Shown here piece by piece: positions 29,108 through 35,963 of a stretch of 42,692 bases of DNA (its first letter is position 1; each line of letters begins with the position of its first letter). The stretch is from contig JAIKWY010000134.1 of assembly GCA_024684395.1 (NCBI GenBank), positions 1-42,692 of the forward strand. Direction: 5' to 3'. The notes beneath the pieces are model-generated. The model had not been told where the DNA came from, made no database searches, and worked only from the letters and a program-made list of their open reading frames with translations. This DNA is from Oscillospiraceae bacterium (GTDB lineage Bacteria; Bacillota; Clostridia; Oscillospirales; Ruminococcaceae). Both the position numbers and the translations under genes were made by a program.

Positions 29108-29147
29108 AACCGTTCGTCCCGCAGAAAGGGCGAACGGTTTCGTTGTT
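29108..29147 (+). terminator. Terminator after the polymerase gene
   Basis: AACCGTTCG (29108-29116) pairs with CGAACGGTT (29131-29139), with inner CCC/GGG pairing, followed by TCGTTGTT. Confidence 0.7.
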
Positions 29148-29373: not shown

Positions 29374-30933
29374 ATGAGAGAAAAGCAAAAGAACGTGCCG
29401 AAAAAACTGCTGGCGATCATCATGGTCATATTCCTTTTGACGATGTGTTCGTTGGCTGTCCGGGCAGCCGCAGAGGAGCCTGCTGCGCAGGATGAGCTCG
29501 CCTTCCTGTCAGAAAAAGGCACTCGCATCGGCGTAGGCAGCGGCAGTATCCAGGAAGTTTTGGTCAACGAACTGTATCCGGATGCGGATATCTATTACTA
29601 TGACAAGTTCCAGGGCTATATCGCACTCGAACAGGGCAAGCTGGACGCCTATATCTATGACAAGAAGCAGATGGAGCTTGCCGTGAAGAACGGTCAGAAG
29701 GGCGTCAGGGTGCTCGATTCCACGATCGGTGACCCGATCCGCATCGCACTCGGCATCTCCAAGACCTCCGCCATCCCGGATCTCGAAGCACAGGTCAACC
29801 GCTTCATCGAGACAGCGCAGGCGGACGGAACGATGGACGAGCTCTATGACCGCTGGATCAACAAGGGCGATTTCACGATGCCGGAGATCGAGCGTCCCGC
29901 CTCGCCGAAGTACCATCTGACGGTGGGCACGACCGGCGACGTGGAGCCGTACAGCTTCTACCAGGGCGAGACACTGACCGGCTTCGACATCGAGCTGATG
30001 TACCGCCTTGCGGCATGGCTCGATGCCGACATCGACTTCCAGGTATTCTCGTGGGATTCGATCGTGCCGGGGCTCCAGTCGGGAAAAGCGGACATCATCG
30101 CATCCAACTTGCAGATCTCGCCGGAGCGTGCTGCCGAGATCACCTTCTCCACGCCGCTCTACGAGGAAAAGAACGGCATCATGGTACGTGACGAGTTCGG
30201 AGCGTCCAGAGAATCCTTCCTGAGCGCCCTGTCGAGCAGCTTTGAAAAGACCTTCATCCGTGAGGATCGCTACAAGCTGTTCCTCTCCGGTATCTTCACG
30301 ACGCTGCTCATCACCGTGCTCTCCATCCTGTTCGGCACGGCGCTCGGCTTCCTCGTCTATATGGCGTGCCGGAACGGCAACAAGGCCGCCAACTTCATCG
30401 CACGCATCTTTGTATGGCTCATTCAGGGAATGCCGGTCGTGGTGCTGCTGATGATCCTGTATTATGTCATCTTCTCGGATGCCAACATCAGCGGTACGGC
30501 GGTGGCGATCGTTTCCTTCACGCTCGTGTTCGGCGCCGGCGTCTTCGGTATGCTCACGACCAGTGTCGGAGCGATCGACAAGGGGCAGACAGAAGCTGCC
30601 TATGCGCTGGGCTACAGTGACCTGCGCACCTTCTTCCGCATCATCCTCCCGCAGGCGGTGCCGCATTTCCTGCCCTCCTACAAGGGCGAGATCATCGGAC
30701 TCATCAAGGCGACCTCCATCGTGGGCTATATCGCCGTGCAGGATCTGACCAAGATGGGCGACATCATCAGAGGCAGAACCTACGAGGCATTCTTCCCGCT
30801 GATCGCCGTGGCAGTGATCTATTTCATTCTGGGCGGTCTGCTGACCTTTATCGTAGACCGCATCGAGATCGGTACAGATCCGAAGCGCCGCAAGAAAGAG
30901 CGCATCCTGAAGGGGGTAAAGACAAATGATTGA
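29374..30933 (+). CDS. Amino-acid-type ABC importer: lobe-swapped binding domain fused to permease
   Basis: A 519-residue fusion. After a signal/anchor segment (about 10-32), residues about 47-165 look like the second lobe of a family 3 solute-binding protein, from KGTRIGVGSGSIQEVL to ADGTMDELYDRWI. Residues about 178-275 look like the first lobe: LTVGTTGDVEPYSFY, GFDIELMYRLA and LQISPERAAEITFSTP. The lobes are therefore in reverse order. The permease domain (about 300-500) has five hydrophobic segments and the EAA loop EAAYALGYSDLRTFFRIILP that contacts the ATPase. The predicted substrate class is a polar amino acid. The ribosome binding site (AAGGA, distant) is weak. Its ATPase overlaps by 8 nt. 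Confidence 0.88.
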   Translation: MREKQKNVPKKLLAIIMVIFLLTMCSLAVRAAAEEPAAQDELAFLSEKGTRIGVGSGSIQEVLVNELYPDADIYYYDKFQGYIALEQGKLDAYIYDKKQMELAVKNGQKGVRVLDSTIGDPIRIALGISKTSAIPDLEAQVNRFIETAQADGTMDELYDRWINKGDFTMPEIERPASPKYHLTVGTTGDVEPYSFYQGETLTGFDIELMYRLAAWLDADIDFQVFSWDSIVPGLQSGKADIIASNLQISPERAAEITFSTPLYEEKNGIMVRDEFGASRESFLSALSSSFEKTFIREDRYKLFLSGIFTTLLITVLSILFGTALGFLVYMACRNGNKAANFIARIFVWLIQGMPVVVLLMILYYVIFSDANISGTAVAIVSFTLVFGAGVFGMLTTSVGAIDKGQTEAAYALGYSDLRTFFRIILPQAVPHFLPSYKGEIIGLIKATSIVGYIAVQDLTKMGDIIRGRTYEAFFPLIAVAVIYFILGGLLTFIVDRIEIGTDPKRRKKERILKGVKTND

Positions 30934-32014
30934 GCTCCGACACCTGAAAAAAGAATATGACATCGTGACACCGCTGAAGGATGTTTCCGTGACGATCAAT
31001 GACGGCGACGTCATCTCGATCATCGGTCCCTCCGGCACGGGCAAGTCCACGCTGATCCGCTGCATCAACCTGCTCGAAAAGCCGACCTCCGGTCAGATCC
31101 TTCTGAACGGCGAGGACATCACGGCAAGGGGCTACGACATCAAGAAGGCTCGCCGCAAGATGGGCATGGTATTCCAGTCCTTCAACCTGTTCGGGCATCT
31201 GACGGTCATCGAGAACATCATGCTGGCACCGATGGATCTGCTGCACAAGGGCAAGCAGGAGACCTATGACAAGGGCATGGAGCTGCTGCACAGGGTCGGT
31301 CTGGCGGAGAAGGCGCTGTCCTATCCCGATGAGCTGTCCGGCGGTCAGAAGCAGAGAGTGGCGATTGCAAGAACGCTCTGCATGGATCCCGAGGTGATCC
31401 TCCTCGACGAGCCGACCAGTGCGCTCGATCCTACGATGGTATCGGAGGTACAGGCGGTCATCAAGGATCTCTCCAGGAGCGGCAAGACGATGATGATCGT
31501 CACCCATGAGATGAACTTCGCACGTTCGATCTCCAACCGGGTATTCTACATGGACGACGGCGGCATCTATGAGGACGGCACGCCGGAGCAGATCTTTGAA
31601 GATCCGCAGAAGGAGCGCACCAAGCGGTTCATCCGGAAGCTGAAAGTCTTTGAGAAGGACATCGTGGGTGCGAACTATGACTTCATCGTATTCGACAGCG
31701 AGCTGGAAAAGTATCTCCAGATGAACGATGTGGCGCCTGCCACGAAGTACCGCATCCGGCTTGTCATCGAGGAGCTGACCCGCCAGATCCTGTTCCCGGT
31801 GCTCCCCGATCCGCAGATCCATGTGGTCACGGAATACTCCATCATAGACGGGAGCTGTGAGATCACAGTGATCTATGCCGGCAAACAATTCGACATCAAC
31901 GATACCGCCAACGAGCTTTCCCTGAACCTGCTGAAAAAGACTACCGATTCCATCCGGTACAGCTATGCGGAAGGCGAGGAAAGACCCAATCGTGTCGAGA
32001 TCAGGCTGAATTGA
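30926..32014 (+). CDS. ABC ATPase (GlnQ type) with a C-terminal degenerate GHKL domain
   Basis: A 362-residue protein, against about 240 for a normal polar amino-acid ATPase. Residues 1-240 are canonical: Walker A GPSGTGKST (34-42), LSGGQ (137-141), Walker B VILLDE (157-162) and the H-loop His194. The extra ~120 residues align by eye with the GHKL domain ending the next protein: LVIEELTRQI against LFVEELAGNI, an FDI/FDP strand, and SLNLLKKTTDSIRY against GIRLVMKLAKDIRY. Here the N-box Asn and the G1 Asp are lost, so it probably does not hydrolyse ATP and may act as a binding or sensing domain. The upstream overlap implies assembly with the permease fusion. Confidence 0.85.
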   Translation: MIELRHLKKEYDIVTPLKDVSVTINDGDVISIIGPSGTGKSTLIRCINLLEKPTSGQILLNGEDITARGYDIKKARRKMGMVFQSFNLFGHLTVIENIMLAPMDLLHKGKQETYDKGMELLHRVGLAEKALSYPDELSGGQKQRVAIARTLCMDPEVILLDEPTSALDPTMVSEVQAVIKDLSRSGKTMMIVTHEMNFARSISNRVFYMDDGGIYEDGTPEQIFEDPQKERTKRFIRKLKVFEKDIVGANYDFIVFDSELEKYLQMNDVAPATKYRIRLVIEELTRQILFPVLPDPQIHVVTEYSIIDGSCEITVIYAGKQFDINDTANELSLNLLKKTTDSIRYSYAEGEERPNRVEIRLN

Positions 32015-32041
32015 CAGCTGCATGGCATGAAGGAGAAAACT

Positions 32042-33826
32042 ATGCAAGAAAAGAAAAAAGGGCAGGATATCGTAACCAATATGTTTTTACCGGCTGCCAT
32101 CGTGATGATCTTCACGCAGATGACCGGTGTGGTCGCCAATATCATCGACGGCGTTGTGACGAGCCGCTTCCTGGGACCGGATGCCTACTCGTCCGTCTCC
32201 CTTCTGGGACCGATGGTCAATATCATCCTCCTGCTGGCGAGCTTTATTTCCATCGGCGGACAGATCGTGTGCTCCCGGAAGATCGGCACGGGCGAACGTG
32301 ACGAGGCAAATGCGATCTTTACATTTTCCGTGATCTTCGGCATCGGCGTGGCTGCGCTGTTTGTGGTGCTGAGCCTGACCGCTCCCAGCATCCTGTTCCG
32401 GATCTGCGGCGTTTCGCTCGACAAGCGTCCGGAGCTGTACGAGTACATGCTGGAATACCTCAGAGGCTATCTGATCGGCATCCCCGCCGTGATCCTGGTG
32501 CAGATCCTGAGCCCGTACCTGGTCATGGACAACGGCAAACCGCTGGTCTCTGTCTCGGCGGGTATCCTCTGCGTGACTGACGTAGCCGGCGACCTGCTGA
32601 ATGCATGGGTATTCCACGGCGGTCTGTTCGGTATGGGACTTGCCACGACGGTCTCTGTGATCCTCCAGCTGCTGGTGCTCTGCATCCACTTCCTGACGAA
32701 GAAGGGGTATTTCCGCTTCTCGCTGAAAGCGCTGACGAAGAACAATCTGATCGACGCTGCCAAAAACGGCTCGCTTTCCTTTGTGAAGAAGCTGGCGACG
32801 ATCGTCCGTGACATCGCCACCAACCGGATCAACCTGCTCATCGCTGTCAGCACGGCAGCGGTCGCAGCCAAGGGTATGCAGAGCGATATCAACATGCTGA
32901 TGTTCTGCTTCAGCATCGGCATCGGAAGAACGCTGCTGACGATCTCGGCGATGTATTACGGCGCATCCGACAAGGAGGGGCTGAAACGGGTATTTGGCTA
33001 TGCCATGAAGCTCTGCGTCATCATCACGACCGTGGTCGGCGCCATCCTGTTCGTTGTGGCACCGCTGATCTCCTCGATCTATACGGACGATCCGGAGGTC
33101 ATCGAGCTGTCCGTATTCAGTATCCGCTGCCTGGCGCTCGGGCTCGGGCTCGATGCCATCACCGAGGCGTTCCAGGACTATCTGCAGGGCATCCAGAACC
33201 GCAAGATGGTCAACATCCTGTGCTTTGCAGAGCGTCTCTTCGTGCCTGTTGCCACAACGCTCGTCCTGGGGTCGCTGTTCGGCACCAAGGGCATCATGGC
33301 ATCGGTGGCTGTGGGCAAGGCGCTCCTGCTGCTGCTCCTGTTCCTCTACCTCTGCATCCGCTGCAAGGGCATCCCGCATAAGATCGAGGATTACATGTTC
33401 CTGCCCAAGGGCTTCGGCGGAAGCGCTGAGGACAATCTCAACGAACATATCTCGTCGATGGAGGACGTGATGCGTGTGAGCCGGGAGGCATTTGACTTCT
33501 GCCGTGCGCACAATGTGGACGAACGGCATTCCAATCATATGGCACTGTTCGTGGAGGAGCTTGCCGGCAATATCGTGACCCACGGAAAGCCCCGGAAAAA
33601 AGGCGGTGCCTGTGCGGATTACAGGCTCTTTGCCGACAACGGCAAGATCTGTCTCAGCCTGCGGGATTACTGCGAGGCATTTGATCCGATGATGTATTTT
33701 GAACTGCACAAGGACGATGCGGATGAAAAAAGCCTTGGCATCCGTCTCGTGATGAAGCTCGCCAAGGATATCCGGTATGTCAATACATTCAATAGCAATT
33801 GTCTGATGATCTATATGGAGGTGTGA
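32042..33826 (+). CDS. MATE-type transporter with a C-terminal GHKL (RsbW-like) domain
   Basis: A 594-residue fusion. Residues about 15-445 form a MATE transporter with some 12 hydrophobic segments. After a linker, residues about 465-594 are a GHKL ATPase domain of the RsbW/SpoIIAB type: N-box MALFVEELAGNIVTHG (near 500-515), a G1-like LRDYCEAFDP (near 540) and a G2-like SLGIRLVMKLAKDIRY (near 563). The start is ATG 32042, because AAGGAG lies 6 nt before it; an in-frame ATG at 32027 has none. RsbW-type domains are Ser kinases and anti-sigma factors that act on STAS proteins, and the next gene encodes a STAS domain. This links transporter state to a signalling partner by inference. Confidence 0.87.
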   Translation: MQEKKKGQDIVTNMFLPAAIVMIFTQMTGVVANIIDGVVTSRFLGPDAYSSVSLLGPMVNIILLLASFISIGGQIVCSRKIGTGERDEANAIFTFSVIFGIGVAALFVVLSLTAPSILFRICGVSLDKRPELYEYMLEYLRGYLIGIPAVILVQILSPYLVMDNGKPLVSVSAGILCVTDVAGDLLNAWVFHGGLFGMGLATTVSVILQLLVLCIHFLTKKGYFRFSLKALTKNNLIDAAKNGSLSFVKKLATIVRDIATNRINLLIAVSTAAVAAKGMQSDINMLMFCFSIGIGRTLLTISAMYYGASDKEGLKRVFGYAMKLCVIITTVVGAILFVVAPLISSIYTDDPEVIELSVFSIRCLALGLGLDAITEAFQDYLQGIQNRKMVNILCFAERLFVPVATTLVLGSLFGTKGIMASVAVGKALLLLLLFLYLCIRCKGIPHKIEDYMFLPKGFGGSAEDNLNEHISSMEDVMRVSREAFDFCRAHNVDERHSNHMALFVEELAGNIVTHGKPRKKGGACADYRLFADNGKICLSLRDYCEAFDPMMYFELHKDDADEKSLGIRLVMKLAKDIRYVNTFNSNCLMIYMEV

Positions 33827-33830
33827 TATT

Positions 33831-35012
33831 ATGCGTACAAAGATGGAAAATGACCGTGTGATCGTGTATTTCGAGGGGCGGATCGACTCCTCAAATTCCC
33901 CTGCGGTCGGACAGGAACTGAGTGAGATCGCAGCGGCGGCAGAAGGCAGAAAGATCGTGATCGACGCCGAGCAGCTGCAATACATTTCCAGTGCCGGGCT
34001 CCGTGTGCTTTTGCAGCTTTTGAAGAAGCAGGGCGGTTTAGAGATGCTGAACGTCTCTCTGGAGATCTATGAGATCCTGGAGATGACAGGGTTCACCGAT
34101 CTGTTGCAGGTCACGAAGCGGATGCGGAAGTTCAGCGTCGAGGGCTGCGAACTGGTGGGAAAGGGTGCGGTCGGCACTGTTTACCGTGTGGACGATGACA
34201 CGATCGTCAAGGTATACGAGACCCCCGACAGCCTGCCGATGATCGAGAACGAGCAGAAAAGAGCAAAGCAGGCGTTCCTGAAAGGCATCCCCACGGCGAT
34301 CTCCTATGATGTGGTGAAGGTGGGGGATCAATACGGCTCTGTCTTCGAGATGATCAAAGCCAAGACCTTCAACCAGCTGCTCATTGAGTCGCCGGAGAAC
34401 ATCGACGATATCATGCACCGGTACATCCGGTTCATCAAGCAGATCCACGGGGTCGAAGCGGATCCCGGCGAGCTGCCGGACGCCAAGAGCGTGTACCTCG
34501 AATATCTGGATCTGCTCAGGGACATCCTCGGCGAGGCGATGTGTTCCCGGCTGCGTGAGTTGTTTGACGCTATGGGGGATGACCTGCACATCGTCCACGG
34601 CGACTTGCAGATGAAGAACGTCATGCTCAGCGGGGATGATCCGCTGCTCATCGACATGGATACGCTCAGCGTCGGCGACCCGGTATTCGACCTGACGGGG
34701 CTCTGTGTCACCTACCAGCTCTACAACGAGGATGAGCCGGAAAATGCACAGTCGTTCCTCGGCATCACCAACGATATGGCGAACTACATCTGGAAGAGCA
34801 TCATGGCGCTCTATTTCGAGGGACAGGATGCTGCACAGATCGCAAAGACGGAGGATACGATCCGTGTCGTGGCATCGGTACGGTTCCTGTACCTTGTCGC
34901 CATTCTCGACATCACCAAACCGGAGCTGAAACAGATCCGGATCGACCGTACACTTGCGCATCTGCGTGAGCTGATCGGGCGTGTGGACCATCTGGAAGTC
35001 GGCACAAAATAA
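33831..35012 (+). CDS. STAS domain fused to an APH-like kinase
   Basis: A 393-residue fusion. Residues 1-100 are a STAS domain of the anti-sigma-factor-antagonist type: VIVYFEGRIDSSNS, then YISSAGLRVLL, with Ser54 at the position phosphorylated in SpoIIAA/RsbV. Residues about 110-390 are a kinase-like domain with a Gly-rich loop GKGAVGTVYRV, a Lys in TIVKVYE, the catalytic HGDLQMKNVML and the metal motif LIDMDTL. This resembles aminoglycoside/choline-type phosphotransferases. GGAGG precedes the ATG, 4 nt after the MATE-GHKL gene. The natural model is that the GHKL domain upstream binds or phosphorylates the STAS domain. The kinase substrate is unknown. Confidence 0.87.
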   Translation: MRTKMENDRVIVYFEGRIDSSNSPAVGQELSEIAAAAEGRKIVIDAEQLQYISSAGLRVLLQLLKKQGGLEMLNVSLEIYEILEMTGFTDLLQVTKRMRKFSVEGCELVGKGAVGTVYRVDDDTIVKVYETPDSLPMIENEQKRAKQAFLKGIPTAISYDVVKVGDQYGSVFEMIKAKTFNQLLIESPENIDDIMHRYIRFIKQIHGVEADPGELPDAKSVYLEYLDLLRDILGEAMCSRLRELFDAMGDDLHIVHGDLQMKNVMLSGDDPLLIDMDTLSVGDPVFDLTGLCVTYQLYNEDEPENAQSFLGITNDMANYIWKSIMALYFEGQDAAQIAKTEDTIRVVASVRFLYLVAILDITKPELKQIRIDRTLAHLRELIGRVDHLEVGTK

Positions 35013-35035
35013 CGTGATCCTGACTGGAGGAAAAA

Positions 35036-35896
35036 ATGGACGATTATCTGCTTGAAAAGAAACTGAAGGAAACATCTCCCGAGCTGAACAAGCGAGTTGC
35101 CGACAGCGTTGTCGTGCTGAAAGAGATGCTGGATTCCTTCCTGTCGTGGTTCCCGGATTTTACCGACCACTCCTTGCTGCACAGCATGGATGTGCTGTTC
35201 TTTGCCAACAATCTGCTCGGAAAGCAGGTCGATCAGCTGAGCAGTGCCGAATGCTATGTGCTGATCATGTCGTGCTATCTGCATGACATCGGCATGGGAC
35301 TGAGCCAGAAGGAATTTGATACATTCATCCGGCACATTGATCTGACCGGATACCGCAAGAAGCGCCCCAATGCCGACACCCCGAGAATGATCCGTGATCT
35401 GCACAACGAGCTCAGCGGTCTGTTCATCCGGAAGTATGCCAATATGTTCGACATTCCCTCGGAGGACATCACCTTTGCCATCGTGCAGGTCAGCCGGGGA
35501 CACCGCAAAACGGATCTGCTCGATGAGAAGGAGTATCCGGACATCATGACGTCCTACGGCGTGATCCGGACGGCGTATCTTGCAGCGATCCTGCGGCTGG
35601 CGGACGAGATCGACGTGGGCGCAGAGCGAAACTCCGAGCTGCTGTTCGACACCTCCAAGCTGACAAAGCAGGTGGATATCGACGCCTTCGGCACACACGA
35701 ATCCATTCGGGAAGTGATCCTGACGGACGATGCGATCATCCTGCGTGCAAAGCCCAAGGAGCCACGCTTTGTGCCGCTGATCGAGGAGCTTGCCGGAAAG
35801 ATCCAGGAAACGCTTGACTATTGCAGCGCCGCCGCAGAACAGCGCTCTGATCTTCGCATCACGCAGCAGCGTGTCGAGATCGAGTGGGAAGAATGA
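35036..35896 (+). CDS. HD-domain protein (HD-CE-like)
   Basis: A 286-residue protein with HD-superfamily metal motifs in order: DHSLLHSMDV (His45/His49), CYLHDIGMGL (the His-Asp pair near 82-83), VSRGHRKTD and AAILRLADEID. The pattern resembles the HD-CE group found with Hsp90-like GHKL ATPases, including ones in conflict systems, rather than GTP/ppGpp or c-di-GMP HD-GYP enzymes. It is probably a metal-dependent phosphohydrolase; the substrate is unknown. It is the last gene of the five-gene unit, 23 nt after the STAS-kinase gene, and a strong bidirectional terminator follows. GGAGG precedes the ATG. Confidence 0.85.
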   Translation: MDDYLLEKKLKETSPELNKRVADSVVVLKEMLDSFLSWFPDFTDHSLLHSMDVLFFANNLLGKQVDQLSSAECYVLIMSCYLHDIGMGLSQKEFDTFIRHIDLTGYRKKRPNADTPRMIRDLHNELSGLFIRKYANMFDIPSEDITFAIVQVSRGHRKTDLLDEKEYPDIMTSYGVIRTAYLAAILRLADEIDVGAERNSELLFDTSKLTKQVDIDAFGTHESIREVILTDDAIILRAKPKEPRFVPLIEELAGKIQETLDYCSAAAEQRSDLRITQQRVEIEWEE

Positions 35897-35927: not shown

Positions 35928-35963
35928 AAAATCGGTCAGTCCTGCAAGGCTGACCGATTTTAT
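35928..35963. terminator. Bidirectional terminator between the five-gene unit and hup
   Basis: AAAATCGGTCAG (35928-35939) and CTGACCGATTTT (35950-35961), perfect 12-bp stem, 10-nt loop. Terminal A and T runs make it work in both directions. Confidence 0.9.

Follow-up and report, generated by a model that had tools for sequence, protein, structure and literature searches.

Introduction

Among the closest described relatives of the system considered here are the SpoIIAA/SpoIIAB/SpoIIE and RsbV/RsbW/RsbU partner switches, whose two halves belong to the STAS and GHKL families. We analysed a 42,692-nucleotide stretch of DNA from an Oscillospiraceae bacterium (GenBank assembly GCA_024684395.1, contig JAIKWY010000134.1, positions 1 to 42,692 of the forward strand; hereafter the window), in which a run of five genes encodes a binding domain-permease fusion, an ATP-binding cassette (ABC) ATPase, a MATE transporter with a GHKL domain (MATE-GHKL), a STAS domain fused to a kinase (STAS-kinase) and an HD-CE phosphohydrolase-like protein. 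As in the Spo and Rsb switches, there is a serine at the STAS phosphorylation-site position and an N box in the GHKL domain, and 19 of 33 related MATE-GHKL genes have a SpoIIE-type phosphatase gene no more than 5 kb away. Unlike in those switches, the GHKL domain sits on a MATE protein and, in degenerate form, on the ATPase of an importer, whereas the STAS domain sits on a kinase. The unit also has no phosphatase gene, and one query found no sigma gene within 5 kb. In our reading, the unit belongs as one variant to a modular partner-switching family that recurs and whose GHKL/STAS pair acts on transporters. The switch domains may here be used for transport control instead of gene expression.

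Switches of this kind are not limited to sigma factors. In the cited passages of PMC9239204, the PP2C/STAS/kinase system SiaABCD of Pseudomonas aeruginosa controls a cyclic di-GMP enzyme, which is PP2C/STAS/GHKL logic with a non-sigma output; the output there is a diguanylate cyclase, whereas here the GHKL domains are on transporters. In the passages used from PMC7367683, the STAS protein MlaB of MlaFEDB binds and regulates the ABC ATPase MlaF, and a phosphomimetic residue at the STAS site weakens this binding; the C-terminal extension of MlaF given there has about 25 residues and is not a GHKL domain. The importer of the window resembles GlnPQ-type importers in its binding domain fused to a PAAT-type permease and in its GlnQ-like ATPase, but its binding-domain halves are permuted and its ATPase has a GHKL-like tail. 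The kinase half of the STAS-kinase matches the model of the TIGR02172 kinases and differs by a score below the cut-off and by the added STAS domain. Searches of the open-licence PubMed Central literature listed no description of a MATE-GHKL or ABC-GHKL system, in line with the initial annotation of this DNA, which knew of no described system with this gene set. Whereas the parts are known, we found in these searches no account of their being combined on transporters, of a degenerate GHKL dock or of the recurrence.

Results

Recurrence of the gene set

Related loci are given below as L numbers. The STAS-kinase (gene 4) anchored an alignment scan with one genome per species, which gave 80 loci (the best 80 of 551); judging by their titles, most are from metagenome-assembled Clostridia of rumen and gut. 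One of them, L164 (Lachnospiraceae RGIG4927), again has all five kinds of gene, in an order different from that of the window. It opens with the end of a MATE-GHKL gene, continues through HD-CE and STAS-kinase genes to the binding domain and the permease, and breaks off after the start of an ABC gene. L164 is thus cut at both contig ends, and its binding domain-permease gene is split. L096 and L097 contain a core of MATE-GHKL, STAS-kinase and HD-CE genes in the order of the window, with the MATE gene split and the HD-CE gene partial in L096. In L099, a STAS gene, a MATE-GHKL gene (70 % identical) and a STAS-kinase gene were found. The neighbourhood of MATE-GHKL, STAS-APH, HD-CE and ABC-GHKL genes that the initial annotation proposed to look for thus occurs again as a set in L164 and as a core in L096 and L097. 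The set is not unique to this genome; in complete form it was found twice, in the window and in L164.

Direct neighbours, defined as same-strand genes at a distance of no more than 250 nt, were counted for 102 STAS-kinase genes (99 distinct) from 99 sources including the window; duplicate or near-duplicate pairs are L029/L162, L101/L105 and L160/L161. MATE-GHKL was the neighbour of 8, HD-CE of 6, PP2C of 4 and MATE without GHKL of 2. Phosphohydrolases of other families stood directly beside the STAS-kinase as well, namely PHP in 4 cases and a Y_phosphatase3 cluster in 4 (one PHP and two Y_phosphatase3 members were checked with Pfam). Taken together with the HD-CE neighbours, these give indirect support to the earlier suggestion that the HD enzyme reverses the signal. 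PHP or Y_phosphatase3 takes the place of HD-CE at L033:7410-8261, L059:10049-10918, L063:3403-4278, L036:8931-9809 and L108:2189-3010; L059, L036 and L108 were Pfam-checked, the PHP match of L059 being just under the cut-off.

Neighbourhoods of MATE-GHKL genes

A profile search (E up to 1e-90) found at least 29 MATE-GHKL fusions in at least 26 of the 295 genomes of the order, a lower bound since four candidates were scored per genome. A STAS, STAS-kinase or SpoIIE gene lay within 5 kb in 25 of 33 MATE-GHKL loci compared to 1 of 26 control windows (Fisher p 1e-8), a count that is partly circular because the seeds of the STAS, PP2C and GHKL profiles include proteins from some of the counted loci, and in which same-genus loci (e.g., L063/L067, L065/L068, L058/L060) were counted apart. 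The single positive control window carried a SpoIIE gene. The 33 loci are those found by the MATE query; L082 and L084, found by the binding-protein query, were left out, and with them the count is 27 of 35. The control windows were derived from 14 stretches hand-picked in the same genomes, one of which overlaps the outer edge of MATE-GHKL stretch L193 by 1.9 kb. No STAS or SpoIIE gene was found within 5 kb in L057, L058, L060, L061, L064, L065, L068 and L187. L065 and L068 have HD-CE instead, and contig ends truncate L058, L060, L061 and L064.

The initial annotation took solute import to be the input of the switch, which was not supported. A SpoIIE phosphatase gene lies near 19 of the 33 loci, and Cache and HAMP sensor domains were present on one of the two SpoIIE phosphatases examined; the unit of the window has no such gene. 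The genome of the window has 6 SpoIIE matches, all on other contigs. One phmmer query of the 5 kb on either side of the MATE-GHKL gene of the window and of the 33 others, with 7 of these neighbourhoods cut by contig ends, gave no sigma gene; the same search recovered the sigma-like gene of the genome, itself the query. The absence of a sigma factor from the unit, as first annotated, was thus extended to the related loci within the reach of this query.

Between the MATE-GHKL and the phosphatase genes there was often a group-transfer enzyme (formyltransferase 2, GNAT 2, GH3 2, all Pfam-checked), and two further genes in this position had no Pfam match. This enzyme slot, which looks exchangeable, is seen at L082:11896-13566, L173:3942-5624, L084:13091-13921, L171:9917-10822, L175:7541-8380 and L176:10553-11359. 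Genes for NHLP-type bacteriocin export ABC proteins occur near MATE-GHKL or PP2C/STAS/GHKL loci (L084:709-5064, L171:15114-19001, L172:2047-4296 and, in the genome of the window, L217:13758-18476), hinting at regulated natural-product export. By eye, very long open reading frames (ORFs) resembling nonribosomal peptide synthetases were also seen beside PP2C/STAS/GHKL or MATE-GHKL genes (L217:3307-7551, L182:1-8664).

HD-CE is rare in the order, with matches in 10 of the 295 genomes (E up to 1e-10). MATE-GHKL was also present in 5 of these 10, compared to 0.9 expected (p 0.0007), and in 4 of 9 without the window (p 0.004); two of the genomes with both genes are from one genus. The two genes are neighbours in 3 of the 10, the window included.

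Organization of the unit

The coordinates of the unit are collected in Table 1. Genes 1 and 2 overlap by 8 nt, and the three later junctions are gaps of 27, 4 and 23 nt, exactly as the initial annotation had them. The domain content it had claimed for the five genes was borne out, Pfam giving SBP_bac_3 and BPD_transp_1 in gene 1, ABC_tran in gene 2, MatE and HATPase_c_2 in gene 3, STAS and APH in gene 4 and HD-CE in gene 5. The start of gene 3 was picked downstream of a GGAG motif, the mechanical ORF start being 32027. The hairpin closing the unit agrees with the strong terminator annotated there; none of 200 shuffles was equally stable. This hairpin is absent from the list of our terminator consensus scan, the yield of which was near chance (8 sites in the region versus 5.5 expected). 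A scan of the region found no promoter-like match on the plus strand upstream of gene 1. The five genes probably form one transcription unit.

Table 1. Positions in the window of the five genes, their domains and the flanking hairpins
Feature	Coordinates	Strand	Basis
Terminator-like hairpin upstream of the unit	29108..29139	+	12-pair stem, consensus scan
Gene 1, binding domain-permease fusion of an amino-acid (PAAT/HEQRo) type importer	29374..30933	+	ORF call, domain models
C-terminal half of SBP_bac_3 domain, placed first	29515..29862	+	amino acids 48-163 align with residues 116-232 of 4zv1
N-terminal half of SBP_bac_3 domain, placed second	29917..30192	+	amino acids 182-273 versus residues 14-106 of 5tuj and 25-117 of 5t0w
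Permease domain BPD_transp_1	30340..30864	+	Pfam, amino acids 323-497
Gene 2, ABC ATPase, GlnQ-like, with C-terminal tail	30926..32014	+	Pfam ABC_tran
Tail of ABC ATPase, degenerate GHKL domain	31640..32011	+	profile comparison, tail alignment; N-box Glu-Glu retained, Gln in place of Asn
Gene 3, MATE transporter with C-terminal GHKL domain	32042..33826	+	Pfam, alignment
HATPase_c_2 (GHKL) domain of MATE protein	33461..33805	+	Pfam 2.2e-10, above cut-off
Gene 4, STAS domain fused to APH-fold kinase, TIGR02172-like	33831..35012	+	Pfam, fold, models
Codons of Ser53-Ser54, STAS phosphorylation-site position	33987..33992	+	invariant in 39 aligned sequences
APH kinase domain	34149..34733	+	Pfam; HGD, N263 and IDM invariant in 39 aligned sequences
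Gene 5, HD-CE phosphohydrolase-like protein	35036..35896	+	Pfam, alignment, fold
Terminator-like hairpin closing the unit	about 35928..35961	+	-22.8 kcal/mol, z -6.4

The GHKL domain and the degenerate GHKL tail

Gene 3 belongs to the MATE family, with two MatE stretches (3.9e-27, Pfam). Asp36 is invariant in 14 of 14 MATE-GHKL proteins and is presumably the aspartate of the first transmembrane helix that serves transport in MATE proteins. In gene 2 the Walker A, signature and Walker B motifs can be read from the alignment. By these motifs, both the ABC and the MATE proteins look functional. The N box of the MATE GHKL domain (E51, E52 and N56) is invariant in 9 of 9 aligned sequences; its Asn is lost in the two more distant MATE GHKL domains of L082 and L084.

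The tail of the ABC ATPase has 124 residues. The window's own tail has no Pfam match, whereas 6 of 12 tails homologous to it matched HATPase_c_2, with E values as high as 0.5 and a best value of 0.0003. Its alignment profile matched the MATE GHKL profile (hhalign 96.6 %, E 5e-10) and that of the GHKL domains ending some STAS-kinases (97.2 %, E 4e-11), so that the GHKL-like tail of the initial annotation was upheld by profile homology and by the Pfam matches of its relatives. The Glu-Glu of the N box is invariant in the tail alignment. By eye, the Asn position of the 12 tails holds Asn in 3, Thr in 3 and Gln, the type in the window, in 6. Because the N-box Asn is lost, the tail is more likely a docking domain, that is, a pseudo-kinase, than a kinase. 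The tail is present in the ten importer loci found with the gene 1 query, which are rows of the tail alignment, and five of these (L082, L083, L084, L088 and L089) have STAS, MATE, SpoIIE, GHKL or HD-CE genes within 8 kb.

The STAS-kinase

Both halves of gene 4 were recognized by Pfam (STAS 7.9e-12, APH 2.6e-16), and its fold was predicted with a predicted local distance difference test (pLDDT) score of 92 and a predicted template modelling score of 0.77. We take the invariant Ser53-Ser54 to be the phosphorylation site by comparison with SpoIIAA, and the STAS-kinase alignment profile matched the SpoIIAA chains 1th8 and 1auz. The gene 4 profile also weakly found chains such as Ttg2E, which we take to be MlaB homologues. 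The kinase half of the model is nearest to APH-type small-molecule kinases (best E 1.2e-9), and its TIGR02172 match (1.2e-30) reached 107.1 bits, below the family cut-off of 228.2. An aminoglycoside resistance enzyme, suggested by the best structure matches of this half, was rejected because small-molecule kinases in general share the APH fold and because the fusion to STAS is conserved.

STAS-kinase-GHKL triple fusions, with both switch halves in one protein, were seen at L056:5230-6816, L059:8452-10041, L063:1770-3389, L066:8310-9905 and L032:1260-2840. On contig C139 of the genome of the window (L041:6316-9595), a second kinase of the gene 4 type, in which no STAS domain was detected, lies directly behind a SpoIIE phosphatase.

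The HD-CE protein

Gene 5 matched HD-CE (PF24391) with 6e-35 and 121.6 bits against a cut-off of 27. H49, H83, D84, H156 and D190 are invariant in 5 of 5 aligned sequences and are probably metal ligands. The predicted model (pLDDT 81, from five sequences) had weak fold matches to PPX/GppA and cyclic-nucleotide phosphodiesterases (best E 1.1e-3), and a sequence search against solved structures gave no match. In L088 and at L212:5442-8163, HD-CE genes adjoin ORFs for putative NCS2 purine/xanthine permeases (by eye).

The importer

Like PAAT amino-acid ABC importers, the importer has an SBP_bac_3 domain, a HEQRo permease and a GlnQ-like ATPase; the HEQRo_perm_3TM model was above its cut-off, and the GlnQ and GlnP models were below theirs. 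The halves of the binding domain stand in permuted order, because amino acids 48-163 match the C-terminal half of solved proteins, including further amino-acid binding proteins, and amino acids 182-273 match the N-terminal half. The order is therefore C half, N half, permease, with the N half joined to the permease (both halves together, 29515-30192). The C half also comes first in all ten related loci fetched via gene 1 (L081-L090, nine genomes), in L084 as a separate gene ahead of the permease gene, so this order looks like a family trait. Where such a locus has several halves, a domain of normal order can be made out between the outer ones; the halves of the window can be paired in the permuted order alone. 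The binding domain, permease, ATPase and tail form a single protein in L082, L083 and L086.

Discussion

We propose that the STAS-kinase has two docking places for its STAS domain, one being the GHKL domain of the MATE exporter and the other the degenerate GHKL tail of the ABC importer. The former, which keeps its N box, would phosphorylate STAS at Ser53/54 and so release it, and the importer tail, unable to phosphorylate, would be an alternative dock. Since the exporter would phosphorylate and release STAS and the importer would only hold it, STAS could move between the two with its phosphorylation state, and its position would set the relative activity of importer and exporter. STAS would also carry the small-molecule kinase to the occupied transporter, where the kinase might act on the transported compound or on a messenger derived from it, and the HD-CE enzyme might remove or degrade the phosphorylated product. 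The fuller form of the module, seen in many related loci, includes a SpoIIE phosphatase that could reset STAS; the form in the window lacks the phosphatase and has the STAS-kinase, the HD-CE enzyme and the importer, and here the reset would be in trans, because the SpoIIE matches are on other contigs. The analysis itself shows the order of the genes, the domains they encode, which motifs are retained or lost and that the set recurs, with no sigma gene found nearby by the one query. From these we infer the single transcript, all STAS binding, which way control runs, the transported solute and what the kinase acts on. As a whole, a partner-switching module that targets transporters and is expressed as one transcription unit is a tentative reading to which we give somewhat less than an even chance. 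Its most specific form, which would add a new output class to bacterial partner switching, is doubtful: that the STAS-kinase shuttles between an active GHKL on the exporter and a pseudo-GHKL on the importer, so that uptake and export are balanced through the phosphorylation of a single serine, which also brings a modifying kinase to the transporter, with no transcription step.

Several observations weigh against the transporter-switch reading. The usual Gly of the G1 box is absent from the MATE GHKL domain of the window (RDYCEAFDP), and kinase activity of this domain is therefore not certain. The ORF list and Pfam gave no PP2C/SpoIIE phosphatase in the unit. Relatives of its MATE protein above 60 % identity were found only in L096, L097, L099 and the fragment of L164; when the L097 MATE protein was searched in a sample of 391 genomes from the class, nothing but the window was closely related (67 %), and six others reached 27-30 %. 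The core of L097 has no ABC importer nearby, and 5 of the 10 ABC-GHKL importer loci have no module gene within 8 kb. The STAS-kinase occurs mostly without the other genes of the unit, MATE-GHKL adjoining 8 and HD-CE 6 of 102, and 59 of the 80 scanned loci have no MATE, STAS, SpoIIE, GHKL or HD-CE gene within 5 kb (many of these contigs are short). From these counts, use of the STAS-kinase extends beyond this unit. Among the listed matches, gene 4 is closest to L091 (76 %), which has no MATE gene in front and whose contig stops too early to tell about HD-CE.

The wide use of the STAS-kinase without MATE-GHKL fits as well with a switch that controls enzymes. The GHKL domains of the membrane proteins would then only hold the STAS-kinase at the membrane, and its release and capture would toggle a small-molecule or messenger kinase opposed by HD-CE, with transport as input and not output. 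The HD-CE, PHP or Y_phosphatase3 genes adjoining some STAS-kinase genes, and the weak likeness of the HD-CE model to PPX/GppA and phosphodiesterase folds, also favour such control. We nevertheless consider it rather unlikely, since the degenerate GHKL on the importer ATPase is not readily explained by it, and since the enzyme beside the switch varies in MATE-GHKL loci (formyltransferase, GNAT, GH3 or STAS-kinase) and the transporter is constant, a constancy that is there by construction because the loci were found by the MATE-GHKL fusion. The same degenerate GHKL would be left unexplained by a conventional anti-sigma pathway in trans, with the MATE GHKL as membrane-bound anti-sigma factor, STAS as antagonist and the sigma factor encoded elsewhere. 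GHKL and STAS are the families of SpoIIAB and SpoIIAA; moreover, contig C65 of the genome has a sigma-like gene close to one for a STAS protein, and the genome contains other PP2C/STAS/GHKL loci. With no sigma gene found within 5 kb of the MATE-GHKL genes by our one query (7 neighbourhoods cut by contig ends), this pathway is disfavoured and, in our estimate, improbable.

The variable enzyme slot can be read in yet another way, as metabolite modification coupled to export: the importer would take up an amino-acid-like compound, the kinase would phosphorylate it and MATE would export it, with STAS and GHKL serving only for assembly. The group-transfer enzymes of several families between MATE-GHKL and SpoIIE, the amino-acid type of the binding protein, and the presence of NHLP bacteriocin exporters close to three of the related loci and to a PP2C/STAS/GHKL locus of the same genome are in agreement with it. 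Ser53/54 is retained in the 39 aligned STAS-kinases and the N-box Asn in all 9 aligned MATE GHKL domains, which argues instead for regulation by phosphorylation; the two more distant MATE GHKL domains of L082 and L084 have lost this Asn. We regard pure modification and export as quite improbable. A chance run of unrelated same-strand genes would account for a complete set found only twice and for components that are often alone. However, the set in another order in L164, the core in L096 and L097, the neighbourhood enrichment (25 of 33 versus 1 of 26), the small gaps and the flanking hairpins make such a coincidence very improbable.

Apart from the switch, the permuted binding domain deserves attention for what it may say about how importers work. 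If the transporter-switch reading is true, a SpoIIA/Rsb switch would directly control transporters in gut and rumen Clostridia, and the tail of the ABC ATPase would be a natural pseudo-GHKL dock that can be tested in vitro. Such a module would explain the site of action of many orphan STAS, GHKL and SpoIIE genes, and would be a general way of coupling import with export.

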